From positions 1 to 64,000 of the IMG/VR virus record IMGVR_UViG_3300036770_007495: a stretch of 64,000 nucleotides of DNA. One strand, written 5' to 3'. The notes beneath the pieces are model-generated. The model was not told where the DNA came from and searched no databases. It worked only from the letters and a program-made list of their open reading frames with translations. Shown piece after piece: positions 23,268 through 59,056 of this stretch (the first letter of the stretch is position 1; every line of letters begins with the position of its first letter). The translations under genes and the position numbers were made by a program. Source of the DNA: a virus.

Positions 23268-23990
23268 ATGAAATACAAACTTACCGACAATACTAAAACC
23301 ATCGGTAGCACCACTCTTTATCAAATCCAAGCTCTCAAAGACTTCGGAAATGTCAAAAAAGGTGATCTTGGTGGTTGGATTGAAAAAGAAAACAATTTGA
23401 ACCAATATGGCCGTGCATGGGTGAGTGGCAATGCACAAGTGAGTGGTGATGCATGGGTGAGTGGTGATGCACAAGTGAGTGGCAATGCACGGGTGTTAGG
23501 CGCTGCACAAGTGAGTGGCAATGCACGGGTGGGTGATGATGCATGGGTGATTGGCAATGCATGGGTGTTAGGTGATGCACAAGTGAGTGGCAATGCACGG
23601 GTGAGTGATGATGCATGGGTGATTGGCAATGCACAGGTGAGTGGCGATGCACAGTTGAGTGATGACGCACAGGTGAGTGATGATGCACAGGTGAGTGGCA
23701 ATGCACAAGTGTTTGGCTGTGCATGGGTGAGTGATGATGCACAGGTGAGTGGCAATGCACGGGTGTTAGGCGCTGCACAAGTGGGTGGCAATGCACGGGT
23801 GAGTGGTAATTCTCAGGTGCGTGGCAATACACGGGTGGGTGGCAATACACGGGGGTCTGGTGATGTATACACAACCCCCAAAGAAGAAATCTTGCCTGAA
23901 ATCCTCTCCTCTCTTCCGAAAGAAGTTACTGCAATTACCATCGACGGTAAGAATTATAAATTGGAAACAAAGTGGGTGCTGGAAGAGTAA
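23268..23990 (+). CDS. hexapeptide-repeat (left-handed beta-helix) protein
   Basis: A conserved N-terminal cap (residues 1-45, K-K-G-D-L-G-G-W-I-E-K-E) leads into about 25 six-residue repeats of the type A-x-V-S-G-N/D, then a C-terminal domain (I-L-P-E-I-L-S-S-L-P-K-E-V) of about 40 residues. The repeats should stack as a left-handed beta-helix, as in bacterial polymer-forming and acyltransferase-type proteins. No catalytic residue is evident. Function in the phage is unknown; a surface or scaffold role is possible. Confidence 0.8.
   Translation: MKYKLTDNTKTIGSTTLYQIQALKDFGNVKKGDLGGWIEKENNLNQYGRAWVSGNAQVSGDAWVSGDAQVSGNARVLGAAQVSGNARVGDDAWVIGNAWVLGDAQVSGNARVSDDAWVIGNAQVSGDAQLSDDAQVSDDAQVSGNAQVFGCAWVSDDAQVSGNARVLGAAQVGGNARVSGNSQVRGNTRVGGNTRGSGDVYTTPKEEILPEILSSLPKEVTAITIDGKNYKLETKWVLEE
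23416..23855 (+). repeat. 18-bp tandem repeat array inside the beta-helix gene
   Basis: Units resemble GTGAGTGGCAATGCACAA, each coding six residues. Neighbouring units differ at a few fixed sites (GTGAGT/GTGTTA/GTGATT and AATGCA/GATGCA), and blocks of two to four units recur, so copy number probably changes by recombination or slippage. Confidence 0.8.
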
Positions 23991-39478: not shown

Positions 39479-40014
39479 TGATGCACAATGATGTGGTGGA
39501 GATGTAGGATGAAAATGATGTAAAAACATGTGAAAATCATGAAAAAGCAGCAGAATATGCATTGGCAAGCAAGTGCTGATTGTTGATGAATGTGCATGCA
39601 TAATGCATTGAGAATCAATGAAGTATGTTATGCATTGAATGTGAACGAGTTACATTGAAATGTTGAAATGTACGCCTCAATGGGGGTGCGAGTGTAGAAG
39701 GGGTTGGCAATGTGGGTATGAGGGTGAATGAAGGTGAATGGTTTGGAAATGAGTTGTGTGTTGCGCGCTCCTTACTCGGCACTTGCTGCCTTTGCGCACA
39801 CAATTTAGACATCGCTTACTTCAGTGCGAACATCAGATCACCACATCGAGAATATCCCCTTGTGGATCTGAGATGCGCACATCAAAACGAGAAGCGCATT
39901 TGCTCAATGCATGTCCCCGCGCCGCCATGCATGCGTTTCCAATGCCATTCAACAATTTTAAAAAACATTCATTTTGTGCATTGCAATACACGTTGTAGAG
40001 TCCACATTGCATAT
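39479..40014. other. 536-bp intergenic region
   Basis: I see no convincing gene. The left half is rich in ATG, TGA and TGCAT words; the right half is more GC-balanced. Open frames here have untypical codon use. It may hold regulatory sequence before the gene at 40015. Confidence 0.5.
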
Positions 40015-40239
40015 ATGACAAAAAACAAACGACTCAATATCAATCGCAACTGGTACTCCAACAAGAATGTGCGCCCCAAGCTGTTCAATGTGACGCTGGC
40101 TCGCGATTCTGATGGCACTTACCGCATTGTGGAAGGTGTGGTGGAAGCAGTGGTGAACCAGCATGAAGCTCGCATTCAGCGCGTGGATGCTCGTGACCTT
40201 GCTCGCGATCTCAATCGCGGCCGAGTCAAGGCTCTGTAA
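40015..40239 (+). CDS. small basic protein
   Basis: 74 residues, Arg/Asn/Lys-rich at the start (T-K-N-K-R-L-N-I-N-R-N-W-Y) and R-D-L-A-R-D-L-N-R-G-R near the end. Probably nucleic-acid binding. Ends before a strong terminator. Confidence 0.62.
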   Translation: MTKNKRLNINRNWYSNKNVRPKLFNVTLARDSDGTYRIVEGVVEAVVNQHEARIQRVDARDLARDLNRGRVKAL

Positions 40240-48132: not shown

Positions 48133-48210
48133 TCAACATCCCCTTCTGGAAATGAGGAATGCATTTTGAGATGATGGCGCAAAATGGCGAGCTGGTTCCT
48201 TCTTTTTTAG

Positions 48211-48238
48211 TTGAATACTTCAAAATTGATGCTATTAT
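48211..48238 (+). promoter_or_regulatory. early-type promoter fused to a T-run
   Basis: TTCTTTTTTAG leads directly into TTGAAT, 16-nt spacer, TATTAT, 6 nt to the ATG at 48245. Confidence 0.58.
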
Positions 48239-48244
48239 AAGAGC

Positions 48245-48481
48245 ATGAAAGAAAAGATTATTGCATTCATTTTTGGGGATGGTGAGGTTGAAAGCAAGAT
48301 TTTTGGGCAGGAAGATGTGGAAGTGTGGGAGAGGGGTATGGGATGGGGATGTGTGAGTTTGGATGATGTGGAATTTCGAATTGTGGATGATGTGGTGATG
48401 GTAATGGGAGAGAGTGTGGAGAAGGTGAAGGAAGGGGTGAAGAAGGTGAAAGTGTATGATGCGGAACAAGATTATGGATGA
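48245..48481 (+). CDS. small protein encoded with very few cytosines
   Basis: 78 residues, M-K-E-K-I-I-A-F-I-F-G-D-G-E start, Val/Glu/Gly/Lys-rich. The coding strand is purine-rich with few C (only 1-2 per 60 nt in most of the gene). Same N-terminal M-K-E-K as the C-free gene at 48940, but no clear homology. Function unknown. Confidence 0.62.
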   Translation: MKEKIIAFIFGDGEVESKIFGQEDVEVWERGMGWGCVSLDDVEFRIVDDVVMVMGESVEKVKEGVKKVKVYDAEQDYG

Positions 48482-48667
48482 TGTGGCAAAATAGGAGCAT
48501 TAATGTGATGCATTAAGTGCATGAATGGAGTGAGTTTCCCATTCATGGGAAATGCATAATGCAGGCACACTCATCTTCATCATCACCCTTCATACTTCAA
48601 GTGGAACCTTTTTTGTGATGCTGGCATCTTGCTCGTTTCCGGCAGCATAAAATATTTTATTTTTAAG

Positions 48668-48695
48668 TTGATGATTCTCTATCAGCATCTATAAT
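48668..48695 (+). promoter_or_regulatory. early-type promoter
   Basis: TTGATG, 16-nt spacer, TATAAT, 6 nt to the ATG at 48702. Confidence 0.68.
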
Positions 48696-48701
48696 GTTGG
48701 T

Positions 48702-48848
48702 ATGGAGAACGAACTCAAAAATAAATTGAAAGAAGTGGAGCAACAAATTCAAAATGTCCAAAATTTTGGATATTGCCGGGAATGTCTCGACATTTTGGTG
48801 CAACAAAAAGAGTGGCTGGAGGGTCTGATCGCCAATTTTTGCGAATAA
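48702..48848 (+). CDS. 48-residue coiled-coil protein
   Basis: M-E-N-E-L-K-N-K-L-K-E-V-E-Q-Q-I-Q-N-V-Q then Y-C-R-E-C-L-D-I-L-V: a helical peptide with a C-x2-C pair. Perfectly placed promoter and a strong terminator frame it, so it is probably a real monocistronic gene. Its base composition is normal, unlike its neighbours. Confidence 0.6.
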   Translation: MENELKNKLKEVEQQIQNVQNFGYCRECLDILVQQKEWLEGLIANFCE

Positions 48849-48854
48849 AACTTG

Positions 48855-48904
48855 AAAGGGAAAGGCAGCTAAAAGGCTGCCTTTCCCCCCCCCCCTTTTT
48901 TTTA
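48855..48904 (+). terminator. rho-independent terminator with C11-T9 tract
   Basis: GGGAAAGGCAGC pairs with GCTGCCTTTCCC, then a run of 11 C (48885-48895) and 9 T. The T-run leads into the next -35 box. Confidence 0.85.
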
Positions 48905-48905
48905 T

Positions 48906-48933
48906 TTGATTAATTAGTGGGGTGAGGTATAGT
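48906..48933 (+). promoter_or_regulatory. early-type promoter of the cytosine-free gene
   Basis: TTGATT, 16-nt spacer, TATAGT, 6 nt to the ATG at 48940. The whole promoter contains no C. Confidence 0.66.
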
Positions 48934-48939
48934 GTGAGT

Positions 48940-49269
48940 ATGAAAGAAAAATTTAATTTTGAAGAGGATATGGATTTGGTGAAAGTGGAATTGATGGATG
49001 ATGGTGATTGGGAGTATTTGAGAATGGGAATTGGAGAGTGTGAGGGTAGGGTGTTTGTGGTTGATTTGGATGATAGTGGAGAAGAAGAAAGGGAAATGAA
49101 ATATGTGAAAGAAGGATTGAGTGTTGAGGATGTTTGTAAGATTGGAATTGAAGTGGGAGTGTTTGTTGATAGTAGTGAGTGGGGGTATGATGAAAGAGAT
49201 AAGGTGAGGGTGAAGATGGAGTGTGAGGAGAAGGATTGGGAGGAATTTTTTAGGAGGTTGAAGGAGTGA
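48940..49269 (+). CDS. cytosine-free gene for an acidic protein
   Basis: The 330-nt reading frame contains no cytosine on the coding strand. The 109-residue product therefore has no Ala, His, Pro, Gln or Thr and uses TTG for Leu, AGR for Arg, AGT for Ser and TGT for Cys. It is acidic (E-E-D-M-D, D-D-S-G-E-E-E) with a regular strand/helix pattern, a well-placed promoter and a normal stop, so it looks like a real gene. I recognise no family. Confidence 0.68.
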   Translation: MKEKFNFEEDMDLVKVELMDDGDWEYLRMGIGECEGRVFVVDLDDSGEEEREMKYVKEGLSVEDVCKIGIEVGVFVDSSEWGYDERDKVRVKMECEEKDWEEFFRRLKE

Positions 49270-49387
49270 AGGTGTGGTGGAACCTTCAAAAGAAGATGAG
49301 GAGGTGGTGATGAGAGTGTGAGGTTGGGAGGATGAGTGTGTGGTGATGATGGGGTGGTGTGGAAATGATGGGGGGAAGTGGTGATGG

Positions 49388-49417
49388 TGGCTGCATTTGC
49401 AGTTCCGCCTTTTTTTA
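49388..49417 (+). terminator. terminator running into a promoter
   Basis: GGTGGCTGCA-TT-TGCAGTTCCGCC followed by TTTTTTT and directly AGTTGATT, the next -35 box. The preceding 49270-49387 is G-rich with no gene seen. Confidence 0.7.
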
Positions 49418-49418
49418 G

Positions 49419-49446
49419 TTGATTACATCTCAAAAGAAGTTATGAT
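49419..49446 (+). promoter_or_regulatory. early-type promoter
   Basis: TTGATT, 16-nt spacer, TATGAT, 5 nt to the ATG at 49452. Confidence 0.56.
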
Positions 49447-49451
49447 GTTGT

Positions 49452-49652
49452 ATGGACATTAAATCTTATGACATCAACAAACAAGAATGTATCATCAACT
49501 TTCTTAATGTGGACAGAAAGGTGAGTTTTAGTGATAATGGGGATATTGATGTGGAACCCATTAATGATTTGAATGAACAGGAAGAGAAAGATTTGTTTGA
49601 TGAGATTTTGAATAGTGAAGAAATCAACAAACTCTTTCCTTACGACTCTTAA
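49452..49652 (+). CDS. small acidic protein
   Basis: 66 residues, M-D-I-K-S-Y-D-I-N-K-Q-E-C start and an acidic helical C-terminus (E-Q-E-E-K-D-L-F-D-E-I-L). Base composition is less skewed than the gene before. Confidence 0.6.
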   Translation: MDIKSYDINKQECIINFLNVDRKVSFSDNGDIDVEPINDLNEQEEKDLFDEILNSEEINKLFPYDS

Positions 49653-49732
49653 AGAAGAGTAAGAGATGAGATGAGAGGACATCTTAATGATGTCCTTTCT
49701 TTTTGTTTGCAAATGGAACCAAATAGAATGAA

Positions 49733-50417
49733 TGAGTGAGTGATGGAGTGGTGAGGAGGAGTGATGTAGAGGTGAGGTGAATGTGGAACCAAAAATGGAG
49801 GAGTGAAGGAGTGAATAGAGTGAATAAATGAAGGAGTGAATGAAGATGTTTCCTTTTGCAATTGGAACCAAAAATGTATGAGTGAATGAATGAATGAATG
49901 AATGAATGAATGAAGGAGAGGTGAGGAGGAGTGATGGAGTGAATGAAGATGTTTCCTTTTGCAATTGGAACCAAAAATGTATGAGTGAAGCTTTATGCTC
50001 AAATTATGCATAATGCAGATTAGATGTTGATGAGGATATGAGAAGCATTTATATTCATTCATGCACTCATTTCTGGAACATCTTTATGCCATCTGCTCAT
50101 CACTCATTATGTTGATGATGATGCTGGTGGAACAAATGAAGAGCATTAAGGTGAGCATTATGCTCATCATTCTCTTTTGCATCTGGAACCTTTCTTATCC
50201 TCTCTTTATCTCAATTGATGGTGAGGTGTGGATGAATGTTGTGATGAATGATGTGATGAATGATGAAATGGAACTCATGAATGATGGAGTGGTGATGAGT
50301 GAATGTGGTGAGGTGTGGATGAGTGATGTGATGAATGATGAAATGGAACTCATGAATGATGATGAGGTGATGAGTGGGAGGGTGAGTGGGAGGGTGAGTG
50401 AATGGCGTTCCGGATGA
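49733..50417 (+). repeat. low-complexity GAATGA/GATGGT region with nested duplications
   Basis: Contains (TGAA)n at about 49886-49916, two near-identical copies of a segment with TTTCCTTTTGCAATTGGAACC (about 49847-49880 and 49950-49984), and a duplicated GATGAATGATGAAATGGAAC unit (about 50256 and 50331). Open frames here are simple-repeat translations on both strands, so I annotate no gene. The strand is C-poor. Confidence 0.65.
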
Positions 50418-50592
50418 AGAGGAATTGATTAGACCATTTCTGAATATGAGGTGTGATTTCTAGACTACATCATGTCTAGAAACATCATCATGTCTAGAAT
50501 TATTAACACATCTTAAATTTTGTATTGTTTTGGATTTTGAGTGGTTCCATAGAAACACAAGCGTGAAAAAACGGAACTAACAAAACTTTTTT

Positions 50593-50733
50593 GGTCTATC
50601 TTTTAGACCGCATGCCAAAATTTTTTTGCGCAATTCACCACAGTTCTGTATATGGGTTTTCTTCACCACAGTTCTATATATGGCTCATTTTCAAAAATTT
50701 TTTTTGCGCAAAATTTCACCATTTCATATATGG
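50593..50733 (+). repeat. iteron-like block before the late genes
   Basis: After a hairpin GGTCTA-TCTTT-TAGACC come three direct repeats: two units TTCACCACAGTTCTnTATATGG (50634 and 50662) and one shorter TTCACCATTTCATATATGG (50715). AAAATTTTTTTGCGCAA precedes the first and third units. AT-rich, no gene. Could be an origin, a replication-protein site or an operator cluster. TCTAGA words repeat just upstream (50461-50498). Confidence 0.6.
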
Positions 50734-50744
50734 CCCTGATGCAT

Positions 50745-50750
50745 TAAATA
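50745..50750 (+). promoter_or_regulatory. late-type promoter
   Basis: TAAATA, 9 nt before the ATG at 50760. Confidence 0.5.
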
Positions 50751-50759
50751 ATTGCACTT

Positions 50760-51386
50760 ATGTCTTATCTTAACAAAGATGCACAAAGCATTTCATTGTT
50801 GTATGAACAGCTTGCACAAGCCCCAGCTCCTGTTGCTGCACCTGTTGCTGCACCTCCATCCATGGTGCAACAGCAACAACCGGCTGCTCCGCAGCAACAA
50901 CAACCAGTTGCCAATGCTGCCAAAGTACCAGCATTTGCTTTGCGTACTTTTGGAGACATCAAAGCCATCATCAACAGAGTCAAAAACAAACAGAAAGTTG
51001 CCGGCGTTGCTGCTGCAGGTGCAGATGCTGCCATTGATGCTGCATTGAATATGATTCCTGGGCTTGGTGCAGCCAAGTCTGCATTTGCATTTTTTAAAGC
51101 AGCCACCTCTCGCCCTGATACTCAAAAGACCAACACCTTCATCGATCAATTGGATGTGGATGATTCCATGAGCAAAATTGTGGATGATACTGTGGAGAAT
51201 GAATTTTTGCAAAACATTGAATCCATCATCAGCAAATATCCTGACAAAGAACCATTGCCAGCCAATTGGAACATGACCAATGAACTGGTGAAGTTTTTGC
51301 GCAACAAGTACAAAAACTCACCTGCAGTGCTGCAGCATCTCACAGACATTACCGCTCGCATGCAGCCTGCAGCACCCATCAGATGA
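50760..51386 (+). CDS. putative internal virion protein with Pro/Ala/Gln linker
   Basis: 208 residues. N-terminal leader M-S-Y-L-N-K-D-A-Q-S-I-S-L-L-Y-E-Q (cut predicted after Glu16), then a low-complexity linker (P-V-A-A-P-V-A-A-P, Q-Q-Q-Q-P), an Ala/Gly-rich hydrophobic segment around residues 85-120 (A-A-G-A-D-A-A-I-D-A-A-L-N-M-I-P-G-L-G-A) that could insert into membrane, and a helical C-terminus. Fits an ejected internal protein; no family name. Confidence 0.66.
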   Translation: MSYLNKDAQSISLLYEQLAQAPAPVAAPVAAPPSMVQQQQPAAPQQQQPVANAAKVPAFALRTFGDIKAIINRVKNKQKVAGVAAAGADAAIDAALNMIPGLGAAKSAFAFFKAATSRPDTQKTNTFIDQLDVDDSMSKIVDDTVENEFLQNIESIISKYPDKEPLPANWNMTNELVKFLRNKYKNSPAVLQHLTDITARMQPAAPIR

Positions 51387-58612: not shown

Positions 58613-59056
58613 GGGGGCGAACTGGCTTCGACTCAATTGGTTGATTCAGATTCGCATGCAGAGGTAGACTAGCTGGCCTCTATAAAAGCAAGTCAAAAAA
58701 CATAAACGCAGAAGACACTGAAGTCGATGCCCTCTTGGCGCAAGCTGAGTACATCTTCAACAATGCTGACGAATTCCTCGTCAACGAAGTTGAAATGGCA
58801 CTCGCTGCCTAAGCAAAAACAATGTTGGATCCTATTAAAAACATTGAGGCAAGCAATAGGTGGAGCTGAACAATGTATGCTCTTAAATCAAACATTGGGG
58901 TGATGTCAGACTCTTCACTGACATAGGTAGGCTCTAAAACTCAGGTTGATGCGCCATGCAAACCTTTTGCCAATGAAATTGCAAATGCATCCAAGCATGT
59001 AGACGGTTTGATGATGTTGATTGAACACAGGGGTTCGACTCCCCTCGCCTCCACCA
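58613..59056 (+). ncRNA. ssrA: tmRNA (transfer-messenger RNA)
   Basis: The ends fold as an alanyl tRNA-like domain: GGGGGCG pairs with CGCCTCC, T-arm AGGGG-TTCGACT-CCCCT, discriminator A and encoded CCA. Conserved tmRNA words are present (CTGGCTTCGAC, ATGCAGAGG, TGGCCTCTATAAAAGCAAGTC). The resume codon is probably GCA at 58708; the tag frame runs 58708-58809 and ends at TAA, giving about 34 residues that start A-E-D-T-E-V-D and end M-A-L-A-A. This rescues stalled ribosomes and tags the protein for proteolysis. Confidence 0.93.

Follow-up and report, generated by a model that had tools for sequence, protein, structure and literature searches.

A cytosine-free promoter and gene in a T4-like jumbo phage, the extreme member of a cluster of sense-strand-G tracts

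The window, the whole 64,000-nucleotide stretch of viral DNA that was analysed, carries on its plus strand a small transcription unit almost devoid of cytosine. Immediately upstream lies the terminator hairpin that serves a 48-codon gene, with a run of C behind it (48854-48895 on the plus strand; the terminator scan lists the stem on the minus strand). The C-free stretch opens at the T run directly after this terminator and, by base count, extends over 387 nt (48896-49282). It includes a promoter (TTTTTTATTTGATT, 48898-48933), in which a 16-nt spacer separates the -35 hexamer TTGATT (48906-48911) from the -10 hexamer TATAGT (48928-48933). The p109 ORF, taken from the ORF list and its translation, spans positions 48940-49269 (109 aa) and is entirely C-free. 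Its ATG is placed only 6 nt past the -10 hexamer, an architecture also found at neighbouring genes. The 3'UTR (49270-49390) is C-poor and includes a further C-free run of 103 nt (49288-49390), which begins 6 nt past the end of the 387-nt run. Throughout the terminator-to-terminator unit of ~495 nt (48896-49390), C residues are found only at 49283, 49284 and 49287, all within one GGAACCTTC motif, and C otherwise reappears only at the intrinsic terminator of the unit (49386-49416, identified by the terminator scan as a stem at 49389-49404 plus a T run). From these signals, p109 is predicted to be a genuine single-gene early transcription unit, composed of a leaderless promoter, an ORFan and an intrinsic terminator.

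The p109 message is predicted to be leaderless. The same layout, with a TTTTTAGTTGAT-like -35 region, occurs at the genes starting at 48245, 48702 and 49452, as well as at the orthologue of the last of these in the related genome G001 (IMGVR 3300023174_000047); given the short distance from -10 to ATG that they share, these messages are also predicted to be leaderless. More generally, the 48203-49450 interval is occupied by small genes with TTTTTAGTTGAT/-10 promoters and an ATG ~6 nt past the -10 hexamer, from which leaderless early mRNAs are predicted to be made. No RNA family scored over its gathering score in the 47.0-51.4 kb region. An ORF of 256 aa on the minus strand (48663-49433) was rejected as a gene, because only TAA can stop a G-free strand and a long open frame is therefore expected there. 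AGGAGG followed by ATG and by a stop within a few codons is found at 49299, 49754 and 49924, the only three such sites on the plus strand of the genome; these minigene-like sites with a strong SD may be by-products of repeats.

p109 is a real coding gene. Its codon positions differ in composition (chi2 p=2e-5), a difference observed neither in the 3'UTR nor in the non-coding tract at 49715-49965, and promoter and terminator are in register with the ORF. Under a C-free Markov null of 495 nt, stop-free runs of at least 109 codons arose in 0.08% of trials (p=0.0008). The gene encodes an acidic protein (pI 4.3, charge -18.5), built from 15 amino acids: as the earlier note had stated, translation reveals that A, H, P, Q and T are missing. 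Since the ORF contains no tandem repeats, C is not missing merely through fresh repeat expansion. No homologue of p109 was found in IMG/VR, annotated phages, GTDB genomes or 15 related records, and the protein matched neither PHROGs nor Pfam. The AlphaFold model obtained from the single sequence has a mixed alpha/beta fold of low confidence (pLDDT 57), and a PDB fold search with this model gave no match (E at least 0.2). A scan with the promoter pattern returned a single match, L121, which was rejected as a chance hit.

The C-free pattern is genuine and lies far outside what chance would give. In the whole genome (224,703 b), no other run free of a given base is as long as the 387-nt stretch; the C-free runs next in length measure 103 (49288-49390), 85, 84 and 72 nt, and all map to 48.3-50.4 kb. 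Runs lacking A or lacking T do not reach 60 nt anywhere in the genome, and one G-free run measures 72 nt. Given the genomic C frequency of 0.204, the longest expected C-free run is ~47 nt, and the probability of a run of 387 nt is, by our own arithmetic, of the order of 1e-34. The absence of C from a promoter and a 109-codon gene, and a bias well past ordinary GC skew, had been claimed from inspection of the sequence, and the counts bear out both. Among 45 viral records searched on either strand, a C-free run of 138 nt was found only in the window phage and in the unrelated contig L122 (IMGVR_UViG_3300025137_008346). No description of C-free phage genes turned up in literature searches.

The window is contained in a virus record of 224,703 b, corresponding to the 224.7-kb genome of a jumbo phage. 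The phage is classified as T4-like because its genes for portal, sheath, terminase, DNA polymerase, baseplate and recombination have matches among T4-like PHROGs. The ends of the record overlap by 127 b, which suggests a complete circular or permuted genome. Catalogued phages are only distantly related to this phage, which encodes a T4-type replication set (polymerase, replicative helicase, primase, UvsX-like protein, phrog_16 helicase and a FEN/RNase H-type exonuclease). No thymidylate-synthase-type gene was found in the phage, so that family gives no hint of a T4-style hydroxymethyl-C metabolism. The base composition of the genome is A.300, C.204, G.206 and T.290 (A+T 59%). A second G-rich skewed stretch (23438-23738, skew 0.52) is located within the ORF at 23268-23990, and a phage tmRNA whose tag (GAEQCMLLNQTLG) is unusual is predicted at 58613-59056.

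Sense-strand-G tracts form a 2.2-kb cluster in a small-gene region, and the p109 unit is the most extreme of them. Within 48.2-50.4 kb, C-poor, G-rich skew recurs patchily, in one further gene and in non-coding repeats. The phenomenon had been described as a C-free gene, which holds in that the 387-nt run is the largest, but there are several skewed blocks and some are non-coding. The further gene is p78 (48245-48481, plus strand; 3.0% C, G 0.41), which has its own promoter (48203-48238) and is not homologous to p109. Between the two lies p48 (48702-48848, plus strand), the 48-codon gene, which has a weak homologue in G001 and an ordinary composition (14% C), in agreement with the earlier reading of both genes. 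Downstream of p109, the p66 gene (49452-49652, plus strand; terminator at 49673-49705) contains a C-poor patch at 49519-49625, recognised by comparison with two homologues: codons 23-58 contain 5 C residues vs 16 and 16 in the homologues, while the ends of the gene are ordinary. The patch was selected post hoc and is weakly significant (scan test p=0.036), and the ordinary C content of the homologues indicates that such a protein does not need low C. Beyond the p66 terminator, two plus-strand tracts composed of low-complexity and tandem repeats follow, one non-coding at 49715-49965 (4.8% C) and one at 50205-50400 (3.1% C), which features 75-nt tandem repeats. Only two canonical G4 motifs exist genome-wide, and both fall in the cluster, at 48327-48348 within p78 and at 50376-50394 within the last tract.

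The region also contains other sequence elements. Nine GGAAC motifs, all on the plus strand and spaced ~54-108 nt apart, are present in the non-coding repeats at 49715-50410; a GGAAC/GTTCC cluster is found at the corresponding place in G001 (~10.9-11.7 kb), with other sequence between the motifs. A conserved non-coding block at 50395-50760, featuring CTAGA inverted repeats and ~28-nt tandem repeats (50634-50693), is 76% identical over 92 nt to G001 and gives short matches in a more distant relative, G005; it is a possible origin or regulatory site.

Neither p109 nor p78 was found in G001, and no homologue of either was found even in relatives whose terminase is ~70-80% identical. Skew recurs in the relative at another place. 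A detached non-coding tract, C-poor and G-rich, is located at 39650-39775 on the plus strand, upstream of a conserved 74-aa gene (40015-40239). In G001, the most skewed locus of the genome (L082:3330-3590; C 4.2%, G 40.6%) is found just upstream of the orthologue of the same gene, the product of which is 88% identical. The two tracts thus occupy an orthologous site, yet are unrelated in sequence. Two more distant relatives, G005 and G003, have the orthologous site without strong skew. That skew is fixed in place while the sequence changes argues for a pressure on composition, mutational or selective, in this lineage.

The nature of the bias is evident from the composition of the p109 ORF (A.318, C 0, G.394, T.288). 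A and T are at genome level, G is approximately doubled (from 0.21 to 0.39) and C falls from 0.20 to 0; C has been swapped for G, so that GC content is kept and each G-C pair has its G on the sense strand. At third codon positions, G reaches.42 vs.163 in the genome, while T is the same (.355 vs.351). For instance, valine is encoded by nine GTG, four GTT and no GTA codons, and arginine by five AGG and two AGA codons, the genomic frequencies being.06 and.35, respectively; among glycine and valine codons, GGA and GTG are used in excess and GGT is used too little. Silent and replacement sites have both been hit: the probability of having no C, given the p109 protein and the codon usage of the phage, is 10^-16.3, and that of lacking the five C-requiring amino acids is 10^-12.8. 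Because silent sites, non-coding tracts and the orthologous site of the relative, with its unrelated sequence, are all skewed, the bias probably reflects a strand-level pressure that acts on DNA or RNA and not on the p109 protein. What was originally proposed is thus upheld as to an action on the nucleic acid, seen at silent sites, promoter and 3'UTR, and needs amending in that C gives way to G, not to T.

An orientation pressure on the strands fits the data best, and we tentatively favour, at odds well short of even, a pressure on G-C orientation in which strand skew favours R-loops on strong early transcripts. According to this model, a pressure on the nucleic acid would turn every G-C pair so that G is placed on the sense strand; the G-rich, C-free transcript would remain paired to its C-rich template, and strong early transcription would open the DNA into R-loops or G-loops. 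Such loops might provide the T4-type replication machinery with primers or entry sites, or single out the region for recombination. Precedents exist for both steps: in T4, transcript R-loops are where early replication begins (PMC3016281), and R-loops are favoured by C-rich templates or GC skew, G-rich RNA being stable on a C-rich template (PMC4412123). The formation and use of R-loops at the p109 unit are what we infer from the following features. As in T4 R-loop origins, a predicted promoter is directly upstream of the putative hybrid-forming region, and the replisome is of T4 type, with a FEN/RNase H-type nuclease, a replicative helicase and UvsX. As in GC-skewed R-loop regions, G exceeds C on the non-template strand of the transcribed region, here with a skew of 1.0 over 387 nt. 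The location of the two canonical G4 motifs of the genome, both in the cluster, is a further feature. Nearest-neighbour estimates of RNA:DNA hybrid vs DNA duplex stability, made with published parameters, rank the p109 unit within the top 0.01% and p78 within the top 0.13% when equal windows from both strands are compared, while p48 and p66 are ordinary; high hybrid stability follows from G-rich composition and is hence not independent evidence for R-loops. The A+T-rich unwinding element of T4 origins is absent (~61% A+T in the unit vs 59% in the genome), and since this defining feature is lacking the unit is not classed as a T4 origin. Further points against R-loops are the ordinary genes lying between the C-poor blocks and the lack of strong skew at the orthologous site of G005. 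Cumulative GC skew shows a local jump at the p109 site but no global extremum.

Nothing in the data demands a function, and a functionless process of local mutation and slippage is nearly as likely as the R-loop model. Local strand-biased substitution and slippage may have filled a fast-turnover small-gene zone with sequence made only of G, A and T, in which case p78 and p109 would be orphan genes of recent origin that arose from such sequence or were overprinted by it. Consistent with this, tandem and low-complexity G/A/T repeats adjoin p109, the k-mers of the non-coding tracts are repeat-like, the equivalent tract in G001 is a GGTGTTGAGA repeat, and block boundaries ignore genes, as in the p66 patch. 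The orphan status of p78 and p109 points the same way. p109 itself, however, is free of repeats and has a strong codon structure. T-to-C transitions are normally common, so that a non-repetitive stretch of 387 nt with zero C would need continual purging of C, and we know of no mutational process giving C-to-G without a rise in T on such a scale. Moreover, the skew follows the transcribed strand.

Returning to orientation pressure, a stronger version of the favoured model, which we regard as rather doubtful, holds that the unit is a natural C-less cassette. Selection on G-C strand orientation would be continuing, promoter, gene and 3'UTR would together act as an R-loop or RNA device, and the protein would be forced to make do with 15 amino acids.

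It is unlikely that early leaderless mRNAs were selected to lack C, either to escape a C-requiring ribonuclease or to tolerate CTP shortage during host shutdown. MazF cuts at ACA and MqsR at GCU, and a C-less mRNA holds neither triplet; the C-free stretch also coincides with one transcription unit from terminator to terminator, and neighbouring messages are predicted to be leaderless. Yet the neighbouring early genes p48 and p66, which have the same promoter type, contain C, the non-coding DNA beyond the terminator (49715-49965) is also skewed, and avoiding ACA or GCU requires neither zero C nor doubled G. The nuclease escape suggested in the earlier note is therefore conceivable, but leaves unexplained the gain of G and the skewed non-coding tracts beyond obvious transcripts.

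Strand-specific hypermutation, in which a deaminase acting on the displaced sense strand removed C in a kataegis-like fashion, is quite improbable. The loss of C is indeed patchy and strand-coordinated, and within the p66 patch G is unchanged (30 vs 28) while C is reduced (5 vs 16), as C-to-T changes at silent Y sites would produce. In p109 and the tracts, however, T shows no increase while G is doubled, a gain for which C-to-T change cannot be the source; the under-use of GGT, the over-use of GGA and GTG and the more than doubled third-position G disagree with it as well. C-to-T changes at CAA, CAG and CGA would have made stops, yet the p109 ORF is open, and a search of the phage genome for the zinc deaminase family PF00383 gave no match. 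The proposed escape from a deaminase is likewise disfavoured by these observations. Selection for an unstructured mRNA, also proposed earlier, is very improbable: a message without C cannot form G-C pairs, but folding is no weaker than in dinucleotide shuffles (z=+0.27 and +0.55), and the doubled G adds G-U pairs and G4 potential. That the stretch is an artefact of assembly or sequencing, or else a slippage product that does not code, is barely credible, even though the contig comes from a metagenome and the C-free stretch is preceded by a homopolymer run of C/T, because the ORF is intact with codon periodicity and with promoter and terminator in register, the flanking genes are ordinary and have homologues, and the 127-b end overlap suggests a complete genome.

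An absolute strand rule within a protein gene separates selection on the nucleic acid from selection on the protein unusually cleanly, as p109 has lost five amino acids and all C-containing codons with GC content unchanged. If the rule is selected, the phage shapes a gene as a DNA or RNA structure, such as an R-loop segment, and the sequence rules of phage R-loop origins, a question posed for T4 (PMC3016281), become directly testable. If it is mutational, an unknown strand-specific C-to-G-like process is indicated. In both cases, further examples such as L122 come to light when coding strands are simply scanned for a missing base.

L122, the sole match in a search combining the promoter with the C-free pattern, is an unrelated element, and it shows that C-free coding strands are not unique to the p109 locus. 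This whole viral contig (L122:1-8409) contains 0.4% C (A.43, G.18, T.38). On its plus strand are seven intact ORFs of at least 100 aa, two of which have serine recombinase (Resolvase) domains (E 1e-18 and 9e-35). The recombinase has homologues in annotated phages, and no close relative was found among viral contigs; L122 is a C-free mobile element. Like the p109 unit, it combines a coding strand nearly without C, here over 8.4 kb, with intact ORFs and few codons for A, H, P, Q and T. In contrast, L122 is A+T-rich and lacks C without an excess of G, its genes are unrelated, and the scarcity of C involves a whole contig rather than one unit. As for the product, p109 resembles the small acidic early ORFan proteins of phages in its shortness, its acidity and its own early-type promoter, but differs in having no sequence or fold match.

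The T4 origins oriF and oriG (PMC3016281) and the p109 locus have in common T4-type replication genes and a promoter upstream of DNA in which an RNA:DNA hybrid is expected. T4, however, relies on MotA middle promoters together with an unwinding element rich in A+T, whereas the phage described here has sigma70-like promoters and a G-rich, C-free tract of ordinary A+T content. Eukaryotic GC-skewed R-loop regions, such as CpG-island promoters and immunoglobulin switch regions (PMC4412123, PMC4245955), likewise feature an excess of G on the non-template strand and have G-run motifs nearby. Those regions are largely repetitive or non-coding and are not wholly C-free, whereas in the p109 unit a skew of 1.0 is carried by a protein-coding gene.
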